A DNA stretch of 64,000 bases from Mesodorylaimus sp. YZB2_4 (Eukaryota > Nematoda > Enoplea > Dorylaimida > Dorylaimidae): NCBI GenBank assembly GCA_030248295.1, contig JASANH010000420.1, positions 1 through 64,000 of the forward strand. Reading direction: 5' to 3'. Both the position numbers and the translations under genes were made by a program. The notes beneath the pieces are model-generated. The model saw only the letters and a program-made list of their open reading frames with translations. It had not been told where the DNA came from and did not search any database. This document shows, piece by piece, positions 6,001 through 64,000 of the stretch; the stretch's first letter is position 1; each line of letters begins with the position of its first letter.

Positions 6001-9000
6001 GGGTTTCTGCCTCGCCTGGAGGAGTGTGTCGAGCAGACAACGAAGGCGAGCCAATACACTACTCCGCGTATAAGGCGGCCAGTCAAGCCAACCACATACA
6101 CTACCTTCTCCGCAGGCCAAACACGGCTGCTAGACTAACCCTATCAGGACCTGCTAACATTAGCTTGATTGGTGTCCTAGGCCATCGCATCATATTGCTT
6201 TCTTGCGCACAAACAGCCAAAGGCAATCGGGATGTTCACCCAGGCCAATCATAAACTAGTTGCATAAAGCCGGTGATTTAGCTCGTGTTTGCCTGCTAGA
6301 CTAGTCAAAAAAGCACGTAAGAGTGTGAGTGCCTAAGTCGAACATAATTTCAACATCAAAATTCTCTCCAGGCCCGAAAAAGTCGAGCCAGAACTAGACT
6401 GCCAAATGTTCCATTACCTCACGCCTCAGCCGACATTATTTCTAAAAACCGACACAGCGAATGACGCAAGAGCATAAAGTAAAGCGCATGCGTGAAACTA
6501 CTTTTGACAAATGTGCTTTGAACCCGACGATCTGAAATGTGATTTATGCATTTTTACGACCGCAGTTGTCAAACAAGAATGTGTTGTAGTTAGGTATGAC
6601 AGAGCTATTGAGAAGACAAACTGGGAGGTCTGCAAAAATAATTAATGAGGTCGACTCAACCAAAATAAGACTCACCCACAAGTGCATAAGCCCCTGGCAC
6701 TATTTTCGTCACAATACCATCGGTACGGACACCGTTCGGGAAAAGTATGTACATTGTCTCGCCCACAAGACGGCCGAATGCTGCTCCTATGAAATACATA
6801 ATGGGCGTGGTTGTAAAACACACAGTGACTGTCTGCACGTGAATTGTACGTGTCTGCAGTGTAAGGTCTAATGGAACTTACCAGTCACGAAAATGGGAAT
6901 GAAAACACCGCACGGAACTGGCAATGTTATGGCGATGGCTGTCATCCAAAACTAGGAAATGGTAAAAAAGAGTGTCACTAGCCATTGGACTGGTACATGC
7001 GAAACAGCTCCACCCATGTTTGCAGGAACTCATGCTGATATTGATATGAAGATTTTGATGGGTAATCCATGTGGAAATACAGATGACAGCGACAGAGTAC
7101 ATGATTAGGATATAACTGAAAGGTGGCATCAAAAGCACTCACCATATTCAAAGCATACAAAGCCAAAACCACAAAAATACTGGAAGTGCCCTTCGCCCAA
7201 AAAGCTAATAGTTCTTCAGCTTCCGTATTGTTCACACCGGGATCGTTCCAAGAGAAGTTACTAAATAAATTACCCAAGGCTTCTCGAGGTGTCAGCTAAA
7301 GGAAGCTTATCATAAGAATGATCACTGAATCAAATTAAGGGACCTTACTCCACCAGCAAAGAACTTCCCGTATCCTAGCGGGCATTTCAAGGAGGCGATA
7401 AGGAAAGTGACGAAGGCAGGGTAGATAATAAAGCTGAATAAGGAAATTTTTTAGTGCCATTTGAAAGTTAAGCCTGACTTGAATGCTTACTTCTTTGCTA
7501 GAAGAGCCTTTATGTGCTTGTTTTGGAGAACAAGAGTAACGTATTTTCGATGGAACCAAACGAACAAGGCACCAGCGAACCCGCAAATGATTCTGAAACA
7601 GGCATTAGTTCACTCGCACAATGGCTTGATAGCCGTTGGTCACTACGGCATACGAGCTGCTTCTGCACTAGCTTATCCCCATTATGGTGCTTACCCGATT
7701 AAAACAAACACAATCAGTTCTTTCGGATCAAATGGATAGTCAGAAGGGAAACTGGTGGCGCTAAATGCTACAACGGTTTCTGAAATCAAAAGATTTTTGT
7801 TAGTACCAAAGAACCGAGCAAAAATTTTACCTTGCTCTTCAAACCACACTGCCAACAGTCGAAACACAACAGCGCTGCTCACTGTCGCCAAAAAACCACG
7901 CCAGTAATTACGCAACGGAAAGAAGACCGATGTTACTTCGATGCTGAACAGGACACCTAAAAGAAATCTGTGACCCATATGCTTTGAAGGAAGGCATGGT
8001 CCAGACAGTACCTCCAACCGCCGCTCCATATGTACTTGCCACACCGACAGCAGCAGCCGCAGCTAACATTTCACTGCTTCTGCTCTCGTTCTGAGTAGAG
8101 AAAGGGCATTGACGCTATTGTTCTTATGTCTGATACACATCACTACTGCTGTGATAAACCGTAACGTACTTCATATATGCCTTGAAAGGAGAAGACTAAC
8201 TTGCTTAGCAGCCTTGCCAGCATACTTGCGATGTGCACAAAGGGACCCTAAAATGCAGTGTAGTTCGCTACTATGCCTTTCTGTCCACTGTTTATACCTC
8301 CTTTCCCAAGGGCAAGCCACTGCCCAGTGCCATGACGAGGCCCACAAACTTGGTCACCAATGTTCTGAACGTCAAATACTCTTTTAAGACCACGCCCCGT
8401 AATATGGTTTTCAATTCAGGTATGCCCGAACCTGTCATTAAGAAACCCAGATTCATTCAAAATACACCAAATCAACTGGAGAACAACATGTCAAAAAAAT
8501 TTCTCACCAACGGCTTGAGGTGCAAGATAGTGACAGAGCGCGGCAGATACTAGGATGAGCACCAATGAGAATAGTACCCACGTCGAATACTGCAATGTCC
8601 AGTGAATACTGCCCGTTTCACGAAAGATGTAAAAATGCACTGAAAACAGGTACAGCCTGGATAGTGTAATACCCGAGCGGGAGGAAGGCTGTCTTTGACA
8701 ACCCAGCCCAGCCTTGAAGGTCACATCTTGTCGAAGTAGTCTAACTTACATCCACGCAGTTTAGTGATTCCGATATCGATAGCGAAGCTAAAAATACCCA
8801 TGACCACCCCGAGTAGAACCAAGTACAACCAATCTTCTCCCAACAGGTCCATCACCGACTTGGAAAATTTGCGGGTCCATTCTGTAACGTTAGTGTGTTT
8901 TATTCACGATTACTGTTTGACCAAACCAAAAAACTTACGTTGATAAAAGGGCCTCTTTCTCATTTCCTCCTCGGCATCGATAGGTGGTTTTTCTGCGGCA

Positions 9001-14169: not shown

Positions 14170-14637
14170 GGCGGCCGCGGTGGTGCAGCGGTTCGGCATT
14201 CGTCTCTCCGTATTTGCTTGAAGGCGAGTGGCTGGACTCGTCCCGGGTTCGATCCCCGGTTAGAGATCGGTTTGCGAACCGTAAACCCTCGCTGACCCTG
14301 CACGCCAGGCGTGCGTGACTCGCCCAGTACCGACGAGGTGTTCCAAGTGGAAAGACGGAAGCCAAACGAGTAGACAGTCTCGGCTGTCGAACACCGACAG
14401 GGTTCAAAGCCCACCCGCCATCGTCCGAGGAAGTCTGTGTCAAGTCCAGGATGCCCTCGCGTGGAGGTGCTCCTAGCGGAGACGCGCAGAGGGACGCTGC
14501 CGTAAGAGCTGGTCACCTCACGGCCTTGCTTATCATCATGACTGCTGGCCGGCTATAGGCAAAAAACGGGTTAGAAGTCCCGTGGGGAAACTGGGGCGGC
14601 GCGGGGCCCAACCAAAAAACTTTTTTTTTTTTAAAAA
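14170..14637 (+). mobile_element. tRNA-derived SINE, family A, nearly full copy
   Basis: The 5' head GCGGCCGCGGTGGTGCAG carries a box-A-like block, and GGGTTCGATCCCC about 60 nt later is a canonical box B. This is a tRNA-like head with a long variable arm. A body of about 370 bp ends in a T-run/A-run. The same head and body recur at 45589-45987 and, rearranged, at 38205-39052. A related 3' part lies at 63140-63445. The tRNA-head, unique-body structure is that of a SINE moved by a LINE reverse transcriptase. I see no target-site duplication. Confidence 0.8.
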
Positions 14638-34295: not shown

Positions 34296-36807
34296 TCAGC
34301 GATTAGCGGGCGTCTTGTTGTACGGAATATAACGCTTCTTTATTGGTAAATAACGTTCTCGTCGAATTGCGGTCGGCAAAGCGGCCGATCGCAACTTTCG
34401 AACGCAACATTCGCACCTAGGCTAAAACAGAAAGTGGTGTCATTATCATCAAAACAGCAAAATCTCTGAACATTTGTGCATTTCACCAAGGTCTCCATCA
34501 AACTGTCTGGTCTCAATACAGCCCACGGTCAGTTCAGAAGTTGTCAGCGGTCTGCAGTAGTTCTCCGATCCGATCTGGCTGATCCGCTCCACAAAATAAA
34601 AGATTGATGGGGATGGCGTATTTGGCACTGCGTCCTCACCAACATGCTCTGTTTCCTCGCTGTCACTCTTTATCAGACCACTCCAGAGGACACAGGAGAG
34701 CTGCCTAGCGCCTCAAGCGGGATTAAGTGCTGATTTGAGATAAACTACGGGACTTTCTTATTACAATATGGCACATCTCATAATTTTCCAGAAGATAACG
34801 CGCAAAAAATTTTAGTTACCAATCAGGCCGATCCAGCAGTCAGATTAAATCGGCTCGGCCAGATCGGTCGATGCTAGCCCCCTCCATATTACCCCTCTGG
34901 AGACTCACGGAAATGCATGTTTACCCCCAAGATGATGGCTTCAGAAAAAAGAGTAAATCATTAGAATGTCAAGTTATAGCGTTTTTAAAAATGGCTATAA
35001 ATGTTTAAATTATAAGTGGGAACTTTGCAGGTATGTTAATTATCCCTCATTTCCTTAGCGTTCGAAGCTTACCCACTCCACTAGCCTTTCGACACAGCCT
35101 CAGAACCTTACCGGAGTCTCAAAACAGCCTTTGGGCGAAGTGAATTCACTGTCACGAATGTAACGCAGTAACACCCCGCCATGATTTTCCAATCGTACGC
35201 GAGCCCAAAGAGAATTTTCTGAATCGATCAGAAAGAACTAAACAAATGATTGTTAAAATCCCTGAAATTTCACGCTAATAGTTTTACCTGCTCCAACGTT
35301 TCACGCAAAACGAATGTTTCGTATTTGAGCAAAAGAAAATATTCGAATCGGCTGCGAAGAAACCTGAGAAAACGCAAATACGCGTAATCATGCAGATGAC
35401 GTAGTACATTCAGCTTACTCGCCACGAAACTCTTTCCAATTATCGCCGTGCACGGTAGCGATGATACTATCCCGATAGCAATTGTCATCATCTTCGTTAG
35501 TTTCGTTCGCCAAATACCTAAATCGAATTCAGAGCAAACATGCAGATTAGTCAGCTCACATTCATAGTTGTCTCCAAGGAAATCCAGTAAATTCAAAACT
35601 TGGATATAAGACGCCAATCCAAGCTAAGGGGATAAAATTAAATAATATTGCTCACAAGAACTTGAAGAAAGCATCTTCTGTGAACTCGGATTGCTTCGAA
35701 CGAATGAAATAAACGCAAACGACCGCCAGAAGATATTTGTCAGACAAGCGATTGCAATAGTCGAAACGCAAGAATTTACTGATGACCATATTTGTCGCTA
35801 AAAAAATTACGTAGGTGGTTCTGCAGAGACCTTTAATCAATAAGAATCAAATTATACTTACACAAGAAGAACAGATAGTTCTTAACCACCTCGGGCGGAA
35901 TCAGTAACGGCTGATTCACTGGTTTTGCTCTGTGATCCACAATACAGCAATAAAAGATCGGTGAACTTTGAAACGGAGGTGTTTTGGGTGATGAGTCGTT
36001 AGATTGCACCGCAATTTCATTCAAAGGAGCAGCGACAAAAAACTCTTCAACCTTGTTGTTGCCAGAGTTATCTGCCGAAACATTGGCCGCATCAGAACCA
36101 TCAAAACTTGCTAAAATCTTTGCAGTGCAGTCGCGAAGAGGAAACAACTGATTACAATTCTTCGTATCCACTGACGAATTCTCTGAATTGTTCGATTCTT
36201 CTGGATCGACTTCCTGTTCGTTTTCATCCAAGGTCTCGTTAACGACTTCGGTTTCGTCAGCATTTTTAATAGACTCATTCAAGCTTGCCGATATACTCTC
36301 ACTGCGGTCGCTAAATAAATCACCGAGCGGATCAGCATTCTTTGCGGAAATTGATTCATTCTCCGATTGTTCGGCTTCGTTGTCGTGTTCGTTCAATGTT
36401 TGATTGGCAATTTTACTTTCATTTTGCGAAAGCAGCGTATTCGGAGTTTCATCTAAGCTCTCGTTGAAAAGGCTATCGCTGAAAAAACTTTCTCTTTCCG
36501 CTCGTTCCACCGCATCGCTGCCAAAATAACTGTCGTCGTCCATATCCTCGACACTTTCATCCGAATCGTATTGAGACGGGTTACGAACACCGTAATCATT
36601 TTCACAAGCTTTCGCTAATTTCATAAATTTTGCAGGAGGCATATCGACCCAATTGGCTCCAAATCTCATCAAAATTTTTAGCGCTTTTTGCCGCAATTCA
36701 GATCGACGTCGCGACTTCTCAATCACACTTCTCGCCCATGCCTTCAAATCTTCAGATACATTCTGGGATTTATCGGAATCAGTCGGCACAGAGTTTTCTT
36801 TCTCCAT
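34296..36807 (-). CDS. Speedy/RINGO-like CDK activator with long acidic N-terminus
   Basis: Exons 35862-36807, 35656-35797, 35419-35517, 35288-35363, 35112-35237 and 34296-34421 join in frame to about 504 aa. The RINGO core begins near residue 300: MVISKFLRFDYCNRLSDKYL, LLAVVCVYFIRSK, FFKFLYLANETNEDDD, DNWKEFRGEFL, LKYETFVLRETLEQ. It parallels vertebrate Speedy (FLWMDCCCKIADKYLLAM, FFIALYLANTVEEDEE, ALGKNWRKLFPNFLKLRD, DYRAIVSRRCCEEV). The C-terminus has a CECC cluster where Speedy has CSLC. RINGO proteins bind and activate CDK1/2 without cyclin homology, in meiosis and the cell cycle. The first 300 residues are acidic and Asn/Ser-rich, with many NES repeats, and are unlike the short vertebrate N-terminus. 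TTGCAG ends 4 nt before the ATG. The ATG lies 293 nt after the TFIIIA stop. Confidence 0.8.
34520..34877. mobile_element. TIR element E, decayed copy (in Speedy-like intron)
   Basis: Strong similarity to 46190-46543 runs through GGCACTGCGTCCTCACCAAC, CTGTTTCCTCGCTGTCACTC, GGGATTAAGTGCTGATTTGAG, AAATTTTAGTTACC and CCGATCCAGCAG. The right end (GATCGGTCGATGCTAGC) matches that element's terminal repeat. The left terminal repeat is not recognisable, so this copy is degraded. It lies in the intron between 34421 and 35112. Confidence 0.7.
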
Positions 36808-37100
36808 GATGCTGCAAGTAGAATGCACCAAGATTACTTCAAATCGATGATCAAACCGAAAAAAGGCAGCCCGCCAAGGCGGGAACTACAGTAGAATGCT
36901 GGTTTTTAAGCGGAGATACTCACCACGAATTCGCTGTACCTGAGCATCAAAGGCGGGAACTCTAAATTTGACCAAATCTTGACTCCTGACCAAATATCCA
37001 TTTTAAAATGACTGGAAATCGAGTCAAACAACTTACGTACAATCATCAACAACTTTATTTTCCAAAATTTATCCACTTTTACCAAACCTGATCGTCTCCC

Positions 37101-39657
37101 TCACTCCACATCACTCGCCTGGCTGCCCTCACCCTCACTTATTTGCCCCCTTCCATTGCCCTGCATGGCAGCCAGCTCTTCGACCAGTTCATACTCGTGT
37201 AACATTTTCATATGCCTCCACTTGACATGCCGTTGCAAAGCTGATCGACCAGCAAACTGTGCCGAGCACGTTTTTTGTGGACACCTGAACGGTTGCATGC
37301 CTCGATGGCAATTCATATGCGCTTCCAAATTAGCTTGGCTCATGAATCTTCGCGTGCACTTGCCCACACTACAAGCGTACTTCGGGATTCGAGTTGGAGG
37401 CGTTTTTGACTCGTCTTCATTCTTCTCGTGTAAATTTCGATTGTGCAACCGCAAATTCCTTTGTTTGGCGAACGTCTTGCCACATTGAGTACATTCAAAT
37501 CTGAGTGGTGTCATGGGATTCTCGTCACCCAATACTGCCACGATCACATCGTCCATCTGTTGCAACTGCCTTCCATCCGGTAATGAACTGAAGTGAGCAG
37601 TCTGAAAAGAATAAACCAATACAGTGCAACGTGCCCGTGCCTTTGCAAACTTAAAGTCCACGCCCCCCTCAACCCACAGACTGATTATAACTCCACTATA
37701 GATTATATTGCCAGTCAAAATAGGACAGCGCAAAGATATGGTCCCTCCCACTCGTCGACAGGTCACAGAGTCCTGACTATTTTGGCAGATACACTATACT
37801 ATAAGGAGCGGGTTCGATTCCCGCTCAGGTCATAAGTTTATTGTCTTTATTCTCCAACTTTTTGAAAAGGCCCAACAAATTTCTTAAGATGGCCAAAACC
37901 ATTTACTACTAAATTCAAACCGAATTGGCAGACTTACTGAATCCTGTACTTCTCGACGTGGAAAAAAAAAAGTGAAAGCCGGGATTTCAAGCGAGGATTT
38001 ACAGCATGACACCCTGACATCCATTTTTGCAGCACCCTATGGTACTTGATGTATGCACATACTGTACAGTTGCCTCTAGCGCATGTGACACGATTTCCAA
38101 ATCTGCCAAATGCATCTGTAGTCCAAATCCCGACCAGGACTGACTGACTCCTAGTCCCAATCATGGACGAAATCTAGCCAGAAGTCGGTATCTCAAAGTC
38201 TATTCTATGCGGCGGCCGCGGTGGTGCAGTGGTTGGGCATTCGTCTACCTCTTTCTGCTTGCCCCGTCACCCCAGTTCCCCCCACAGATCGATCATACCC
38301 TCCACTATAGATTATAACAGCCAAAATAGGAATCCTAGAGTGCCTCTAGCCAGCCAACAGTCATGTTATGATAAGCGAGGCCGTGAGGCGACCAGCTTCC
38401 CTGTGTGTGTCTCCACTAGGAGCACCTCCACACGAGGGCCCTGTACCAGCACCAGCATCCCAGGATGATACTGGGCGAAAAGGGAGGGACCTTCCCGACT
38501 GGTGTTTCGAGGACCAGTTTCCTGATTCTCCACTCGTTTAGTGTCCGCCACTCGACGGTACCCGGTGAGTCGCCCAGAGCCAGGTGTGCAAGGCCAGCGA
38601 CGGACCTATTTAACTGCCATCCTCAGCCAAAAAAGAACTGGGCCTCCCAGTCAGGGTTGCTGGCCCAATCAATGCGGGACCAACATCTTAACTGAGCCAC
38701 CGCGGCTCATGCTTTGGACCGAATGGCTGAGCTCGTCCCGAGTTCAATCTCCGGTGATGGAGGTCGGTTTGCGAGCCATAAACCCTCGCTGACCTTGCAC
38801 GCCAGGCCGTGGGTGACTCACTTGGTACCGTCGAGGTGCTCCGAATGGAGAGACGCCGAACGAGGAGACAACCTCGGCTGTCAAACATCGACGACAGGGT
38901 TCACAGCTCGCCGCCATCGTCCGAGGAAGTCGGTGTCCTGTCCAGGATGCCCACGTGCTCCTGGTGGAGACACAGGGAGGGAGCCATGAGAGATGGTCAC
39001 CTCACAGCCTTGCTACCCAGGTTGGAAGTACCTTGAGGGGACCCACGAAAGTCTATTCTTTGAGTTCAGAGCTGCCAACTGGACCCACCTGTCCCCATCC
39101 CCCACCCAAATCCTTACCTTGACATGCTTGGCCATCTTCCACGGGGGGACTTTCTCCGTGCAATTTTCTTTTGGGCATGTGATCGCTTTTTCGTGCAATC
39201 TTTGATGTTTCTTCAACGTATACGGTTTTGCGAATTTCTTCCCGCATTCTTCGCATTTGTGCTCGATCGGATGAGCATCGGCTTTATGTTTTCTCAATGC
39301 CGACCAAGTATCGGCTCGAAATTGGCAATCTGGGCAAGGATAAGTATTATGCCGTTTCATATGACGCGTTAATCGCGATGGAAAAGCGAATTTCGCCGAA
39401 CACATTTCACACGAATATTTTTGCCTAACTTTTTCATTATGGATCAATAATCGATGATCGTTCAGCTGCTTTCGTTTTCGAAATACTTTATCGCATCCAT
39501 CCACATCGCATTCATAATGTAATTCCACCTTTTTCTCCTTTTCATGAATATTTATCGTATGCCGCCGTAAATTAGCCAATTTCGTAAATGTTTCTAAACA
39601 ATTTGGTACTGAACAGAAATATTTCGGTGCCAACAACGGTTGTTTCGATCGACCCAT
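37101..39657 (-). CDS. GTF3A: Transcription factor IIIA, nine C2H2 zinc fingers
   Basis: Two exons, 39118-39657 and 37101-37601, give about 346 aa, the normal TFIIIA length. There are nine C2H2 fingers: YFCSVPNC, YECDVDGC, YSCEMC, YPCPDC, HKCEEC, ITCPKENC, FECTQC, YACSVGKC and FRCPQKTC. The count and irregular spacing are those of TFIIIA. Finger 6 is split by the intron: exon 1 ends KMAKHVK and exon 2 begins TAHFSS, which supplies the last histidine, so splicing is well supported. A short acidic C-terminus follows. TFIIIA binds the internal control region of 5S rRNA genes and 5S RNA itself. The ATG sits 2 nt after the stop codon of CMC4, so the two may share one transcript. The 1.5-kb intron is filled with SINE sequence. 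Confidence 0.88.
38205..39052. mobile_element. Rearranged family A SINE cluster in TFIIIA intron
   Basis: 38209-38262 is a plus-strand head (GCGGCCGCGGTGGTGCAGTG). 38360-38590 is a minus-strand body fragment, shown by CGAGGCCGTGAGGCGACC and CTCCACTAGGAGCACCTCC. 38702-39052 is a plus-strand copy with box B (CGAGTTCAATCTCC), TGGAGGTCGGTTTGCGAGCC and GTCCAGGATGCCCACGTG. 38640-38700 adds a minus-strand tRNA-like head. This looks like nested insertion of related elements. Confidence 0.7.
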
Positions 39658-39659
39658 TT

Positions 39660-39869
39660 TTAATTGCTTTTCTTTTCTTTCGCTTTCTCTTCTTTTTCAA
39701 TATCGATCATAAATCCTTCGCAACAGGCCGCCTTGTGACGAAATTTCCTACAGCACTCTAATAATTGATCATAAATCGCTCGACACTTCTCCTCGTTATA
39801 GCTATTCCGTTGCAAACACGTTTGGTAATCACACGCGTGCTTCAGACACGGATCGTTACGAGAAGACAT
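39660..39869 (-). CDS. CMC4: CMC4, twin-cysteine mitochondrial intermembrane-space protein
   Basis: A single-exon ORF of 69 aa, the expected CMC4 (p8/MTCP1NB) length. The cysteine pattern follows human CMC4: DPCLKHACDYQTC, then CLQRNSYNEEKC, LLECC and AACC, forming a coiled-coil-helix-coiled-coil-helix fold. Such proteins are imported into the intermembrane space by the MIA40 relay and are linked to respiratory-chain biogenesis. The start is a good ATG (MSSRNDPC). A TTTTAG acceptor-like site ends at 39897, 27 nt upstream. The stop codon (39660-39662) is separated from the TFIIIA ATG by 2 nt, so no promoter, poly(A) site or intercistronic trans-splice site fits between them. In human, CMC4 is also encoded in a two-product locus, with MTCP1. 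Confidence 0.93.
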   Translation of the reverse strand: MSSRNDPCLKHACDYQTCLQRNSYNEEKCRAIYDQLLECCRKFRHKAACCEGFMIDIEKEEKAKEKKSN

Positions 39870-40102
39870 ACGGGTGCAATCGATCCGGAAATGACCCTAA
39901 AACCTGAACCAATCCGAGCACGTAGAAAACAACATCCAGTCTTTCAGATAGCATCTAGATCAAACTCAAATTTAAGCAAAAAAAGACCATTTCTTGAAGT
40001 TATTTACAGGCCCAAAACGAGTCGAACACGTGACCTAATTAACATTGAACAAGCATTAAATTCATTTTCGAAGGTCATTCTCGAATTTTGTCGATCTACT
40101 AT

Positions 40103-41852
40103 CTACCAACGGTCATTCTCTTCGTATCGATCACGAGTGCTTCTCTTACCCAAACGATGGCGTAGATTTCGTCCAGATGAAGCCCGATCATTGGGCACAG
40201 TGATCTTCATCCTAGCATCATCCAAGACTCCACGTAAATCTCGTTCATCTCTTTGCGAAACGCGCCAATCGCCGTCGATTCCACTTGCTTCATTACGATT
40301 AGATTTAATTCGGCGTAATTGGCGTCGCTTTTCTTCTTTTTTATTTTCTTCTTCATCCGCTCGCATTCGCATTTTTGGTTTCTTTTTGCTTCGTCCTTCT
40401 TCTTCCTCCATTGCTTCGTCATCCGATGAAAAATATGTCAATTTAATTTCGCCCGTTTCCGTATCTTCCTCTTCCACCAATTCGCCCGGTTCCAATTCGC
40501 TACTTCGACGAACATCGTCACGAAGCAGATTCCAACGAGCCCGATCGCTGATTGTTTTCCGTAGATCCGATGTCTCACCCATCGGCCTGTCATCATGTTC
40601 ATTTCGACGTCGTTTTCTCGAAAAACGTTCCATATACGAACGACTTATCAAACCAGTTTGACCACCGAAGTTTGGATTCCCGTATTCTTGATAATATCGA
40701 CTCTTCCTCTGGGCACCACGAGTCTTCACATCGTCCACTGTGGCGAAACGCATCAAGATCAATTGAGATGATTGACTGACTTTTCCAATTCTCCACCGAC
40801 CGGGTGGCACCGTTAATTGACTCACGTCCACGTCCAATGGTTCTTCGTCTTCCAAAATTCGATCCACTTGCTCGTCTCCTTTCGATTCGCTGATATCGTC
40901 GGGCGAGACTCGTCCTTCCGGTTCAGAAGTTGACTGCCGTTTTAAAGGAGACTCGAATGCCTCGGCATCCGAGTCATCGCTATCTCGAGTTTTCTCGCTT
41001 CGTCGTGCTTTCGATGGCCAAATACGACGCAACGGACTGGACATACCGAGCAAACCACGGGCAGCTGCTGTTCGTTCAGTCCATACCAAATTGCAGGACG
41101 TATCATCGATCCATTCCAGAAAGGATGGGATGTACGGACCGAAGAAATCGAAGATCTTATCAGTTGACATATTGTCGACGCCGCGCAAATAAACAGTATT
41201 CAAACGATACTTTGCCTTGTGTCGTGCGTTTTCGGCATCGATTTCATAAAATTCGTATAATTTCTTCAGAAGTTCTGGTGTGGGCTCGTCAATTATTGAT
41301 ACGGCTGATGATGATGATTCTGGAGCAGCAGGATCTGAAAGAGAAACCCGCATCAGAAAAAGGGGACTTCCAGTTACATATCATGCAATTCAGAATGCCA
41401 AATACAAAAAATGGTTTACCTAATCCAAATCGTTTGGCTCGTTCAGCTCGACGAGCCTTTTGTTCGTCGCTGTTTAAAAAGCTTTCGAATTCGTCCTGTT
41501 GCTTTAGTCTCGGATTTGTATAACGTTTGATATTCGGTGGTGCTCCAAGCTTTTCCGCGTCAAAGACCATTTCAATTTTTGTTTTTCGTCGAATCTCGCC
41601 ACCGGAAGTGTCCAAATGTGTTTCATCCACTGCAAACGTATCCACATCTTCGACCGGGGCAAATCCTTGATCAGCTTGTTCATTGGATTCATTTCTTTTC
41701 GGCGATCCCGTATCCGATAGCATTTCTTCATCGTCCTCGCTGTAATCCAAGGAAATTTCCTTGGTCAACGAATCTTCAACATCATCTTGGTTGCCATTAT
41801 TCGACGTAGGAGCCGTTTCAAAACTGACCAACAGACTTTTTCCCGATTCCAT
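40103..41852 (-). CDS. NCBP3: Nuclear cap-binding protein subunit 3
   Basis: Exons 41420-41852 and 40103-41334 give about 554 aa. The N-terminal third is acidic, with IKRYTNPRLKQQDEFESFLN before the intron. The RNA-recognition-like region is YRLNTVYLRGVDNMSTDKIF, FFGPYIPSFLEWIDDTSCN and LVWTERTAAARGLLGMSS; WxDDTSCNVVW is the NCBP3 hallmark. VPPGRWRIGK and ILMRFATVDDVK follow. The C-terminus is highly charged (Arg/Asp/Glu/Lys). NCBP3 pairs with NCBP1 on the mRNA cap and supports mRNA export. It heads a minus-strand run with CMC4 233 nt downstream, and is divergent from ATXN3. The ATG is the first in frame and gives MESGKSLLVSFETAP. Confidence 0.92.
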
Positions 41853-44229: not shown

Positions 44230-47200
44230 ATGTGGTTCGAGGCGAGGAAGCAAGAACGAAAGATTAGATCGGCTATGGTCGATCATAAAAGACGACAAGA
44301 GCGTCGACGTAATTTTTATGAACGAATTGTATGTGCTTGGAGTTGGACTGGAATATTTGGAGAGTATGGATGAATGCGTTGCTCCATTTTAGCGTAAGGA
44401 TCCGACTGAATTTATGCAAGTTCATGGACGTCAGTGCAAGATATACGTGGATCCATCGATCGCTCAGGCGGCTGAAAGTGCAGCCATATTGTAAATTATC
44501 GATTTTGTTGACTTGTTGGATTGTATTAGGTGGTTTTTCTTGTGTAGGCGTTCATGGCAAGGTGACCCGCAGGTATTGATCGATCGGTTCGATGCTCGAT
44601 CACATCTGGATACGATTGTAGAATATAAATCGGAGGATGGTGCAAGGTAAGGTTCGATCCTCGCCAAGGGTTTCATTCCAGTTTTTCATTGTGTCTTTGG
44701 TAATTCTGAGCCCCTTTTAATTCATAATTTTTTGTGCCTGTAATGCGGGGTTTTTTAGCGAAGCGACAGCAGCAAGTTCGACAGAGCGACGTCAGGAAAG
44801 AAGGGCCAATTATGAGCGTTATCGTATTTTAGTGCTTAACGATTTTGAGAAAGGTAAATTCCTTCACTTTTGAAGGTGAATTATCGAATCTTGTTTTGTA
44901 GTCACGGAAGACAAGTATTTGAAACAGATCCATATTAACGAGTATTTCGGAGGGTTGCCTCCTCAGCACGATGATAAAAAGAAGTGAGTCATTTTTTAAT
45001 GAATTGTATGAGGTTCGCTGGGAGTCACTCAACTCATGAGGATGAGTGTGCTGTAGGTTTTAAGACATTGACAGAGGAGCCTTGCAGGCAACCCTGCACA
45101 TGGGTTGGACGCAGAGGCTGGCCGTGTGTAACAAGCGTAGAAAGGCGGTTGGAATTAACTAACCTAAGTCCATAAACAAAGAAGGGCCAACTCAGGGCTC
45201 AAGGCTGGAAAGGGACTGAAACATCAAACGTATGGGTGCGATGCTTTCCTGCTGGGGTTCGGAAATATTGACCCGCGGGTGTCGCACGAGTCGCTGCACG
45301 ATGGCATCGTGTGCGGTACTGCAGAGAGAGTCTGCGTTCTTATGGTTCTGTGTGCAGTGCCCAAGCGGATCGTCACCCGTCAAGGGGATGTATCAGCCTC
45401 ACAATCAGACTGGGAAGACTGCTGGAGTTCTGGCCTGTGCAGATATTTCGTCCAGTATTTTGAACCCGGACATATCCCTCAACGATTCGTGGTCGATTCA
45501 CCTAACACACCAGGGTCGAGACCTGCATTTGGTGTAGGGTGTAATAGGCCCGCCCACCAAGTCTGCAGAGCAGGTCTACATAGGTCCTGGCGGCCGCGGT
45601 GGTGCAGTTGTTCGGCATTTGTCTTCCCATCTTGCTTGCTACTGGTCGCGGGTTCGATCCCTGGTGATGGAGGTCTGTTTGCGAGCATCGCTAGCCTTGC
45701 TTGCAGGGCCGTGGGTGGCTCACTCGGTACCGTCGAGGTGAGGTAGTCCAAGTGGAGAGACGGAAGCCAAACAAGGAGACAGTCTCGACTGCCAAACACC
45801 AGGGAGGGTCACAGCCCGCCTGCCATCGTTCGAGGAAGTCGGAGTCCTGTCCAGGATGCCCTCACGTGGCGGTGCTCCTAGTGGAGATGCTGCTATTACA
45901 GCTGGTCACCTCACGGCCTCGCTTAGCAAAAAGGGTTGGAAGTCCCTTGGAAACGCGTGGTGGCCCAACCCACAAAAAATTTAAAAAGGTCCGGGCCTAT
46001 TTCTTGAAACATCGAAGGGTTGTGTGCTAGGCTCCCCTGCTAATGTGTTAACAGACAATTGACCACGGTTAGACTCAATTTTACGCTTGTCCTACATCGA
46101 TTCAAATCTTATAAATGATTCGGATTCTCGTTTGAAACACCTCCTTGCCAGCATCGACCCATCCGACCCTGGGCCTGGATCCCGATCCCGATCCGATCCG
46201 ACCGATGCTATTCATAGAATACAAGATTGGTGTGGATGACGTCTTTGGCACTCAGGCCTCACCAACCTGCCCTGTTTCTTCGCTGTAACTCTTTTCTATC
46301 AGACCCCTCCAAAGACAGGCAAGAGCTAACAGCGCCTGAAGTGGGATTAAATGCTGATTTGAGAGGAAAAAATTGGACTTTCTGATCATAGTATGCAGCT
46401 CTTTATCGTTTTCTAGCTGATGAAGCGAGAAAAATTTTAGTTGCCGATCCGGCCGATCCAGTAGTTGGATCGGATCTGGAACCGACCCACCCCCTGGACC
46501 GGCGGATCGCTTTGACCGGATCGGTGGATCGGTCGATGCTGGCCTCCTCGTCGTTATAGGACTCTCATCCTTAGGCAGTGGTGATTGAACTGTGACTGCT
46601 TCCATTTTCTGCTTTTAGAAAACCCCAGGAGCAAAAGGCTGCAATCGCCTACACGTACGAAGATAGTACCGGTCCTACGGCGTCTCATTCCAAGGACACG
46701 AAAGAAGACGAGGTCGAGGATGACATTGACGAAGAAGAGTTAGCTGAAGAATTATTACAGGCGACAGGTGAGTATTGTGATTTTTTAAGTTGAATGATTC
46801 TTTAAATGATTAATTTCTGATGGTTTAGAACGTCGCATCGATGTCACAACTTTGTCAAAAGACCAGTGGAAGGAACTGAATATACTATCTGCCAATTACT
46901 CGATCGCGCCTGGAGATTTTACCAAGTATGGGGTTTGGTTTGAGGGCATTCTCTTCTCGTAGATTAGATTGTGCGTTGGTGGTGTGCTGTTGAGGATGGG
47001 CAATATTTGGGAACATGTGAGGCAAGGCTTGATTTCCAGTCGGCTGGCAATCAAGCCTTGCCTCACGCGTAGGGATTTACGATGGAGGACTGCCTGCACC
47101 CCTCAGGGCTCGATAAAATCAGGGCCTGGAGGCTGTCACAGACGGTGCCTACTGTGGGTTGACGCCACCATATCGGGGTTGAGACAGACACTTCCTCTTG

Positions 47201-61063: not shown

Positions 61064-64000
61064 ATGAGAGACCCGAAAGAATTAATATTTCTGCTTTTAA
61101 CCCTGTCCCATGCATTGGTGGCCTATAATGACGACGACATCGTTGGTAAGAGGAATATTTGCCCTAGACTAGGCTTTTTTATTTTCAACTCTGCATGGGA
61201 TATTTTTAAGTTTGTTTTATCGTTTTAGTTCCGGAATGGTTTGCGTATATGTAAAAGGCTGCTTTGGTTGAAGACTGACAGATTGCCGTTTAGGTTTAGA
61301 GGAGCCATATTTCTACGACATATTCGGCGATTTGAACCATTTAGTATTGACTGGCGGCAACGTTTTACTGACGTGCTCTCATCCAGATTCAAAGAACATA
61401 CCATGTACCAACAAATCAACCGCGTCTTTAATAGTCAGCCCCGACTGGACTCCAGTGCTTCCACCGCAGAAAGCTAATTGCGAAAACCACGGGCAACCTT
61501 TTCCTCTCTTGAACATAACAAGGGACTTCCGGCTGGGAACATACAAATGCAAGATCGACGGTGTCCTTTCGCTCGATACGTTTGACGTACCAATACGCTA
61601 TCGCATATGTGAGTCAACATAGTCTTAAAATTCTTAGCTCGCCCTATGTAGGTCTACAGTATCAAGGGCTGACCAGAGTATGGCTGAAGCCTGGAACGAT
61701 CCCACGCAGCCCACCACACCTCGTGCTCGGTTGATTGCAACGCGCCACAAGGCCTATAGAATCTCAAGTAAGGGAGCGGCCGCACGTGTCAGCCGTGAAT
61801 GGGGTTCTGACGGACCTGAGCCCGAAGTGCTCACAGAGCAGTTCAGGCCAGAAACTCAAGAGCAGTCCTCAGCCGCCTTAGTGGTGAAAGTCGTCTGTCA
61901 CGGTTTGCTTGGCAGAGCTGGCAACCAGTTGGCCCTGAGCTCAACTCTGGCCCTCTGATTGTGAGACTTGGTCTCTGCGCCTTGCACGCTTAGGGTCGAT
62001 AAACGAGGAGAGGCCTTATGGGGCGGTAGGCTCTCAAATCCGGGTCCCCTCACGGGGCACAAGCTGGGTATGGTTACCCGATGGGGTAACCACCGAAATC
62101 TCGGGGTAACGACTAACACGCACCCTTGCCCGGCATGAATCCCCACGTCGATTTAAGGTGTCACCTCAGCGCCCTACTTTCTAAAGGTCGGGCACAAGTA
62201 ACTCTTTGTTTAACGCAAAATGGCGAACTACAAGTTGTGAAGAATGAAAATCTCGACGCACTGTAGTTCGATTTCTTGCTTTACACTGCTCACTTGATCG
62301 TAAGTAGCCCCATCAAAGTTTCAGGAACCGTCACTTTACGTTGCACACACTTAAGGATACCCTTAGCGCGTCGGGCGTACTGCTCACGCGAGATAGGAAT
62401 CTAAACCTTCGTGTCCCGGATTGACCCTAGTCGATGGCAAGATAGGGTCAACTAACAAGCCCCCCAGCCCGCAGGTAAAGAGCGAAAAATCGACGCTCTC
62501 CCGATCTGACCAGGATGGGTAAAAAAAAAACAATCCTTAACCGATGTCTGTAAACCAGACCAGTTGCTCGACCTCGATCTCTCTCTCACGATCAGTTTCC
62601 ATTCTGGTTGGACTTTAGGGAGACGGGTCTTCTATCCCCTAAACCAGCGCGCTGATACAGTAGCTTATTATAATCTTACCATTTCAAGAACAATAAGCAT
62701 AAGCAAGAGACCCTGTTTCCTAAGCGCAACATTGAATTTGACGCCGCCACATCATGGCCAGCTCTAGTCTTGAGGTTTTCCGGTTTCTTTCCCAATGAAG
62801 CGACGCGGCATCAAGTCGATGCTACGAGCCGGTGGCTTATCATCAATTGCGAGACGCTAGTCCCGCATTGCCTGGGCCGGAATGCGTTTTTGCAGCTAGG
62901 AGCGGCATCGCAGTAAGCCCGTCCTCAGAGTGGTCCAAGCTTGGTAGGCGCAGGGGAGAGTGTAACCGATTGAAGTCAGCGGGATGATAACTTCGACTGG
63001 ATCAAGGCAGGTCTTGCGATTTTGCATACTTGCGGAAACATCAACCAGAGGGGTTGACTGTTCTAAGCCGTGGGAGATCGATTAGGTACTCTCCCATTTG
63101 CACTATAACCAGGCGCCAGGGTTACAGTAGGATCCGATCTTCGACGGCAATTTAGTATGTCAGTCGCTGCCCTTGCACACAGGGCTCTAGGTGACTCACC
63201 CACGGTACGGTCAAGTGGCGGACAGGCAGTCGTCCTCGATCATCAGTCGGGAAGATCCCTCCCTTCTCGCCTAGTATCATCCTGTGGGCCGCTGGTGCTG
63301 GCACAGGATGCCCTCCTAGAGTCAGAGGGAACCTGCCCAGCGAGTTAATCGCTTAAAGGCCTCTCTTCATATCGTGTCATATCAGCCGCCCGGCTGTAGG
63401 CAAAAATGGGTAGGAAGTGGGAAACTAGATCTGCACGTGGTCCAACCCACCAGAATCTACTGCAGCAAAATCAAGTCGATTCTGACGTTCGAGGAAACAG
63501 GGCTAGGCACCAGTATTTTTTTATGTGATATTTTTTGTATCCCTCAAAGCTACAGCCTGGCAACTCTGGTGGTAAAGACATGTCTATGTTGTATTCACTT
63601 GTTGTGGCGCACCCTACGTATCTGTAAGCTTGTAGCCCTGGAGAACCATTTTATTGTTTTTGGTCAGGTCGGGTCGGGCGCGCTCATTAGCTTCAATGGG
63701 CGAGATACGCATGCAACAGCCATCTGTTGCAACTCGCTTGAATTAGACTATGCGTTCCTCGATAGCATTTTCAAGCTGGAGTCGAATAGTTAAAATTAAA
63801 AATACATCTAATCTTTCTATTTTTTAAAATAGGTGATGATCAAGAACCAGCTTGCGCGAACGAGAATACATGCTCCACGAAGAATGCATTTTGTTTCGTC
63901 ACGGAGAGGCAAACGTTTCCCTGCGCTACGATCCCAGATCTCTCGTACTGCAAACCTCATGTGCAAGGCATCATGATCTTGCCTGTCGGAGCTCACTCCT
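61064..64000 (+). CDS. Secreted or membrane Ig-like protein, incomplete at right edge
   Basis: Exons 61064-61145, 61294-61608 and 63833 to beyond 64000 agree in phase. MRDPKELIFLLLTLSHALVA is a clear signal peptide. The second exon has an Ig-like core: HLVLTGGNVLLTCSHPDS, several N-linked glycosylation sites (TNKS, LNIT), and LGTYKCKIDGV, the D/G-x-Y-x-C of an Ig F strand. The third exon is Cys-rich (EPACANENTCSTKNAFCF, CATIPDLSYCKPHV). Signal, Ig and a Cys-rich module would suit a receptor ectodomain or a neuregulin-like ligand, but the Cys spacing is not a clear EGF domain. I do not recognise the family. The 2.2-kb second intron carries SINE sequence. The gene continues past the window. Confidence 0.7.
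61872..62535 (+). mobile_element. tRNA-headed SINE, family B, copy 2, with internal insertion
   Basis: The head GCCGCCTTAGTGGTGAAAG and GTTTGCTTGGCAGAGCTGG match copy 1 (19885-20303, minus). So do GGGTCGATAAACGAGGAGAG, CCGGGTCCCCTCAC and, further on, GATGGCAAGATAGGGTCAAC and AGCCCGCAGGTAAAGAGCG. The copy ends in an A-run near 62530. Between about 62145 and 62425 it has some 280 bp absent from copy 1, either an insertion here or a deletion there. Confidence 0.7.
63140..63445. repeat. Family A SINE-related fragment
   Basis: CCGGCTGTAGGCAAAAATGGG followed by GTAGGAAGTGGGAAACTAG and GGTCCAACCCACC parallels the 3' end of the family A copy at 14170-14637. The upstream part, with CAGGATGCCCTCCTAGAG, also resembles the family body but is shuffled. 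It lies in the last intron of the Ig-like gene. Confidence 0.5.

Follow-up and report, generated by a model that had tools for sequence, protein, structure and literature searches.

CMC4 ends two nucleotides before TFIIIA in the nematode Mesodorylaimus: a candidate dicistron read by leaky scanning

Introduction

Loci that encode two proteins on one mRNA have been described in flies and humans. In Drosophila, the sloth1 and sloth2 open reading frames (ORFs) are described as lying 5 nucleotides (nt) apart (GCAAA), with a weak start codon context (ACACATG) followed by an optimal one (CAAAATG), and leaky scanning between them was tested with reporters (PMC9681215). FlyBase release 6.04 is reported to contain 159 dicistronic pairs, 45 of which appear to make both proteins solely from dicistronic RNA (PMC4528330). 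The bicistrons described in humans include SLC35A4, with the mitochondrial STREMI encoded upstream, and MIURF-MIEF1 (PMC13303939, PMC4383229). The human CMC4 locus is also described as shared, MTCP1 being located within the first intron of CMC4, with a common 5′ untranslated region (UTR) and two distinct transcripts (PMC8566464). The present study concerns the CMC4 and TFIIIA genes of the dorylaimid nematode Mesodorylaimus sp. YZB2_4, which lie 2 nt apart in a stretch of 64,000 nt (assembly GCA_030248295.1, contig JASANH010000420.1, positions 1 to 64,000), hereafter called the window.

From the observed geometry, product identities, reading frames and AUG contexts, we infer that CMC4 and TFIIIA are probably the two cistrons of one mature, spliced mRNA, in which TFIIIA would be reached by leaky scanning; we give this reading slightly better than an even chance. 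The CMC4-TFIIIA pairing was not found in the literature on CMC4 or TFIIIA with dicistrons or operons, which was surveyed largely by title. It is most likely a new gene pair in an arrangement known from flies and humans, an uncommon but ordinary dicistron.

Results

Both genes are located on the minus strand, in the order NCBP3, CMC4, TFIIIA and an ORF of 324 residues, with 233, 2 and 293 nt, respectively, between each stop codon and the next ATG. The features of the pair are as follows.

39660..39869, minus strand: CMC4 ORF, 69 residues, twin Cx9C protein, ATG at 39869-39867, TAA at 39662-39660, matching PF08991
39658..39659, minus strand: gap AA, 2 nt, between the CMC4 stop and the TFIIIA start, read from the sequence
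39118..39657, minus strand: TFIIIA exon 1, 180 codons, matching PF22110 with 41.4 bits, limits from sequence and frame
37602..39117, minus strand: putative TFIIIA intron, AAG/GTAAGG ... TTCTTTTCAG/AC, 1,516 nt, with an interspersed repeat, from sequence and frame
37101..37601, minus strand: TFIIIA exon 2, three C2H2 fingers and the stop codon, from Pfam, pattern scan and frame

The first-pass annotation had placed the two genes 2 nt apart and had regarded them as separate conserved genes of different families, and both statements hold. The CMC4 stop codon is followed by AA and by the ATG at 39657-39655, which opens the TFIIIA ORF as ATG GGT. CMC4 matches PF08991 with 51.2 bits (cut-off 28.9, E=1.6e-13) and the human CMC4 structure 1hp8 (E=6.1e-12), and its twin Cx9C motif reads C8-x9-C18 and C29-x9-C39. 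The TFIIIA-specific finger PF22110 is matched by exon 1 (E=1.4e-10) and, with 35.0 bits, by the joined protein (cut-off 27). Each family has its sole match in the whole assembly (145 megabases, 1,067 contigs) at this locus, among seven candidates scored for PF08991 and 17 for PF22110. Exon 1 used as a protein query found itself and 10 other places (29-41% identity, E 1e-6 or weaker, best 1.1e-6), as is usual for zinc fingers. A 1,011-base-pair DNA query of the locus matched only itself, and this search of the assembly thus yielded no second copy or haplotype. The reading frames of CMC4 and TFIIIA differ by an offset of 2 and hence do not form a single ORF broken by a stop codon. On this evidence, CMC4 and TFIIIA are two conserved genes and not chance ORFs. 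As the first-pass annotation had held, a TFIIIA mRNA read from this ATG must contain either part of CMC4 or a leader attached within CMC4. Since CMC4 ends 2 nt before the TFIIIA start, the two genes probably share one mRNA.

Four AUGs are encountered from the CMC4 start through the TFIIIA start. The CMC4 AUG at 39869 has a weak context (C at −3, T at +4), as do two AUGs within the ORF identified by the context scan.

39770..39772, minus strand: AUG in CMC4, out of frame, opening a 4-codon ORF, weak (T at −3, A at +4)
39708..39710, minus strand: AUG in CMC4, in frame, weak (T at −3, A at +4)

The fourth, the TFIIIA AUG at 39657, has a strong context (A at −3, G at +4). The window holds 2,176 ATGs in total, of which 797 are weak (36.6%) and 294 are strong (13.5%). 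The chance of a weak-weak-weak-strong order is about 0.007 if the four are taken as independent background ATGs, a value that is only rough because real start codons differ from background ATGs. The other start codons of the same-strand run, those of NCBP3 (41852) and of the downstream ORF (36807), are both in a strong context. Reinitiation or an internal ribosome entry site had been proposed as the route to TFIIIA; the weak and strong AUG contexts favour leaky scanning instead.

The proposed dicistronic mRNA would have its transcription start, or the splicing of its leader, within the 233-nt stretch that separates NCBP3 from CMC4, and would run through both genes to end past an AATAAA hexamer. 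Scanning ribosomes would often skip the weak CMC4 AUG and both weak AUGs within CMC4, and would initiate at the strong TFIIIA AUG just beyond the CMC4 stop codon. Some CMC4-only mRNA might also be produced via an ATTAAA hexamer that covers the CMC4 stop. The hexamers in question, both identified from their letters, are given below.

37054..37059, minus strand: AATAAA, candidate poly(A) signal, 42-47 nt past the TFIIIA stop
39659..39664, minus strand: ATTAAA hexamer extending across the CMC4 stop into the gap, candidate poly(A) signal for CMC4

In favour of the dicistronic mRNA, AATAAA follows TFIIIA and is absent from the CMC4 ORF, and no AG preceded by a pyrimidine-rich stretch is found between 39757 and the TFIIIA ATG. 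The gap between NCBP3 and CMC4 also has no AATAAA, although it holds an AATGAA at 40066.

With regard to TFIIIA itself, positions 37101-39657 correspond to a TFIIIA gene that is interrupted by the putative intron listed above (donor GTAAGG, acceptor TTCTTTTCAG), and the spliced product would have 346 residues. Pieces of the repeat in this intron recur in the window at 14225-14456 (82% identical), 45642-45861 (78%) and 63143-63315 (80-85%), and also at two other loci (L006 and L035).

By our own count the protein has nine C2H2-like units, of which a strict pattern detects seven; the sixth is degenerate and split by the intron. The description of TFIIIA as full-length is not clearly supported, as fingers 1-4 find their best match in fingers 3-6 of the Xenopus protein. 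The best phmmer alignment places TFIIIA residues 13-129 on Xenopus TFIIIA 73-188 (51.3 bits), which we take to be fingers 3-6. Weaker alignments pair residues 1-75, from Met1, with Xenopus TFIIIA from its own Met1 (17.4 bits, fingers 1-2) and residues 13-77 with Xenopus 43-102 (20.3 bits, fingers 2-3). In the best alignment, TFIIIA thus appears to have no counterparts of vertebrate fingers 1-2. In structure searches, the first 129 residues of the ORF ranked the Xenopus TFIIIA chain 1tf6 first, and a 179-residue query placed repetitive ZNF568 chains above TFIIIA (83.0 vs 65.7 bits).

The idea that fingers 1-2 are encoded in an upstream exon, with CMC4 inside a TFIIIA intron, was rejected: within the window, no C2H2 pattern was found upstream on the minus strand by a strict scan, which missed two of the nine TFIIIA fingers. 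A lone stray minus-strand pattern is located at 123, downstream of TFIIIA. Upstream of position 39657, the TFIIIA frame meets its next stop just beyond 39696, with no other ATG in between; for this reason, and given the weak Met1-Met1 alignment with Xenopus, the ATG at 39657 is likely the TFIIIA start.

Alternative explanations

The main rival is a pair of overlapping, separate transcripts, namely a capped TFIIIA mRNA that starts inside CMC4 and a CMC4 mRNA that ends in TFIIIA exon 1 via ATTAAA. We regard it as unlikely, though a serious contender. The earlier statement that a poly(A) site cannot be accommodated between the genes is not right with regard to the signal, since the candidate ATTAAA at 39664-39659 overlaps the CMC4 stop. 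This hexamer and a GATAAA at 39556, inside TFIIIA exon 1, occupy positions suited to such a CMC4 3′ end, and many fly dicistronic loci are described as also yielding monocistronic transcripts (PMC4528330). Nevertheless, the ATTAAA is part of an A-rich run in which such a hexamer is likely to occur by chance, and the 45 nt that precede the TFIIIA ATG, which are 84% purine, mostly encode the Lys/Glu-rich tail of CMC4.

A second and distinctly unlikely explanation is that a 5′ exon (in cis) or a spliced leader (in trans) is joined inside CMC4, so that TFIIIA has a monocistronic mRNA, either from an NCBP3-CMC4-TFIIIA operon or from a locus with a shared promoter. The same-strand run with its short spacing is consistent with such a locus, as is the TTGCAG (TTCTACTTGCAG) that ends 4 nt before the ATG of the ORF at 36807; Ciona operons are likewise described as often having no intercistronic region, their boundaries being poly(A) and trans-splice sites (PMC7986045). 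A survey of 27 AGs from 40079 to 39608, in which each position is the first base after the AG, found two candidate leader acceptors 5′ of CMC4.

39897..39908, minus strand: TTCAG (before 39903) and TTTTAG (before 39896), candidate leader acceptors, 34 and 27 nt 5′ of the CMC4 ATG

The best AG within CMC4, before 39757 (TTTATGATCAATTATTAG), follows a stretch of 62% pyrimidine and could serve such a junction. In contrast, 11 AGs lie from 39757 to the TFIIIA ATG, none of them preceded by a stretch of more than 50% pyrimidine, and the last four have only 6-12% pyrimidine upstream, so that the survey found no good 3′ splice acceptor directly 5′ of the ATG. The AG before 39608 (TTTCTGTTCAG) lies in the first finger, and its use would remove the TFIIIA start codon.

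Searches for a leader were negative within their limits. Rfam SL1 and SL2 had no matches in the assembly, but the control genomes also gave none and leaders of other phyla are not covered, so that absence is not shown. A signature pattern based on the general layout of nematode leaders matched 57 times, compared with 65 times for the backwards control, which is chance level, and no leader family was apparent by eye among 30 of the 57 loci. A search for 5S genes gave 5,618 first-look candidates and 47 matches among 47 scored, many in a tandem array of units of about 304 base pairs; no leader RNA was seen in the 5S spacers examined by eye. Trans-splicing at CMC4-TFIIIA is therefore unsupported, given the SL1/SL2 null and the signature at chance level, although both tests are weak. 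As a separate observation, two classes of 5S genes can be distinguished, the tandem array and dispersed copies in longer, similar flanks on other contigs (loci L036, at G000:C295:1-8000, L026, L029 and L033).

It is very improbable that TFIIIA is translated from a dicistronic mRNA by reinitiation, or by ribosomes entering internally at the A-rich tract, and not by leaky scanning. Internal entry is known at polypurine A-rich tracts, and the 45-nt tract described above is of this kind; since it encodes the Lys/Glu-rich CMC4 tail, its purine content needs no further reason. With 69 codons, CMC4 is long for an upstream ORF, and the 2-nt spacer leaves almost no distance in which to reacquire initiator tRNA. 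The help given to reinitiation by DENR-MCT-1 is described as dropping with the length of the upstream ORF (PMC5972666).

Equally improbable is an assembly error or ribosomal frameshift concealing a single fused ORF, for although the TFIIIA frame is stop-free from 39696 to the ATG within the low-complexity A/G-rich CMC4 tail, the CMC4 stop precedes the junction A-run, whose length is therefore irrelevant, no canonical −1 slippery heptamer was seen there by eye, there is little sense in joining a mitochondrial Cx9C protein with a nuclear factor, and the TFIIIA ATG context is strong.

Discussion

Among the explanations weighed here, we favour a shared, spliced mRNA with leaky scanning to TFIIIA. 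The first-pass annotation is thus retained as to the gap, the separate conserved genes and a dicistron as the best option, but not as to the poly(A) argument, the full-length TFIIIA or the human parallel discussed below.

Several observations count against the favoured reading. The four AUG contexts are a small sample, and the 16 ATGs of long ORFs in the window, a crude set in which some are internal or antisense, comprise 3 strong, 8 adequate and 5 weak contexts, the 3 strong ones being those of NCBP3, TFIIIA and the downstream ORF. AUGs also occur upstream of 39900, including a strong one at 39990, and the leader should therefore start, or be spliced, downstream of it for scanning to reach CMC4. 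The ATTAAA over the CMC4 stop means that CMC4 could be polyadenylated alone. CMC4 also contains the in-frame, weak AUG at 39710. In-frame internal AUGs were reportedly found by Wall in 2005 to attenuate translation of the second cistron in two fly dicistrons, and a first cistron free of in-frame AUGs is said to be present in stoned and snapin; such an AUG would act as an attenuator, and its absence is not a strict requirement. Finally, according to FlyBase curators, most fly dicistronic pairs fail the scanning requirements (PMC4528330).

A bolder version would be a CMC4-TFIIIA dicistron fixed in the lineage, in which leaky scanning ties the supply of an intermembrane-space protein to 5S rRNA transcription, the stringency of start codon selection shifts the ratio of the two products, and TFIIIA has lost its first two fingers. 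We consider this version as a whole improbable, and its link between mitochondria and 5S rRNA is speculative. Conservation of the arrangement together with a regulatory link would raise its interest. Relatives were sought with the TFIIIA query in a viral contig collection (three pattern stretches, none confirmed) and with the CMC4 query in a genome contig collection (228 stretches, none confirmed), neither of which is a eukaryote collection.

Neighbouring features

The genes on either side of the pair are the following.

40103..41852, minus strand: NCBP3 gene, 233 nt upstream of CMC4, matching PF10309 (E=4.4e-16)
35833..36807, minus strand: ORF downstream of TFIIIA, 324 residues, no Pfam match, from the ORF list and Pfam scan

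A Pfam scan of 127 of the 362 stop-to-stop ORFs of at least 66 residues around the locus matched five families; the ORFs of the CMC4/TFIIIA locus were scanned separately from this set. ARAGORN found no tRNA in the window. Elsewhere in the assembly, cox1 had 15 matches, most of them broken. A 488-kilobase contig carries cox1 twice in inverted orientation (L014, G000:C73:246001-256000), one copy having a frame that is intact under code 5 (7283-8854), the other being partial and located beside nad4. A mitochondrial cox1 frame is open not only under code 5 but also under codes 4, 9, 13 and 14, and code 5 was preferred by judgement on conserved residues. The two copies may reflect recent transfer of mitochondrial DNA to the nucleus, or else a mis-join.

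Comparison with known systems

If real, the CMC4-TFIIIA dicistron would join sloth1/2 and SLC35A4 as a pair whose upstream product is a small mitochondrial protein, and it would raise the question of why small mitochondrial proteins occupy the upstream place. It also calls for caution in annotation, where one of the two ORFs in a pair of this kind can easily be lost.

The locus resembles the spliced-leader operons described in nematodes and tunicates (PMC7986045) in its same-strand cluster and short spacing, but differs from them in that no leader was found in the searches above and no good acceptor in the AG survey beside the TFIIIA ATG. As in the human CMC4/MTCP1 locus, where the 5′ UTR is common to both, CMC4 shares its locus with an unrelated ORF. 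The human locus had been cited as a precedent for CMC4 as a 5′ partner. In the published description, however, MTCP1 lies inside the first CMC4 intron with a shared 5′ UTR and no partner follows CMC4, and human CMC4 therefore does not hold the 5′ position in a dicistron (PMC8566464). Drosophila lemmingA/lemmingB is described as an essential small upstream ORF and an unrelated downstream ORF on one mRNA, but with a spacer of 92 nt and inefficient translation of the second ORF (PMC3372440).

SLC35A4 (STREMI) and MIURF-MIEF1 are similar in that a conserved small protein is described as encoded 5′ of the main ORF on one mRNA; these pairs differ in being from vertebrates and in being backed by ribosome profiling and long reads. 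MIURF, like STREMI, is mitochondrial.

The sloth1/sloth2 pair differs from CMC4-TFIIIA in that its members are described as likely paralogs acting in one complex, whereas CMC4 and TFIIIA are unrelated, and in that its transcript and leaky scanning were tested, whereas the nematode pair is known from its sequence. The two pairs share a similar plan: each has a small mitochondrial protein upstream (79 residues in sloth1, 69 in CMC4), a tiny gap (5 and 2 nt), different reading frames, and a weak Kozak context followed by a strong one.

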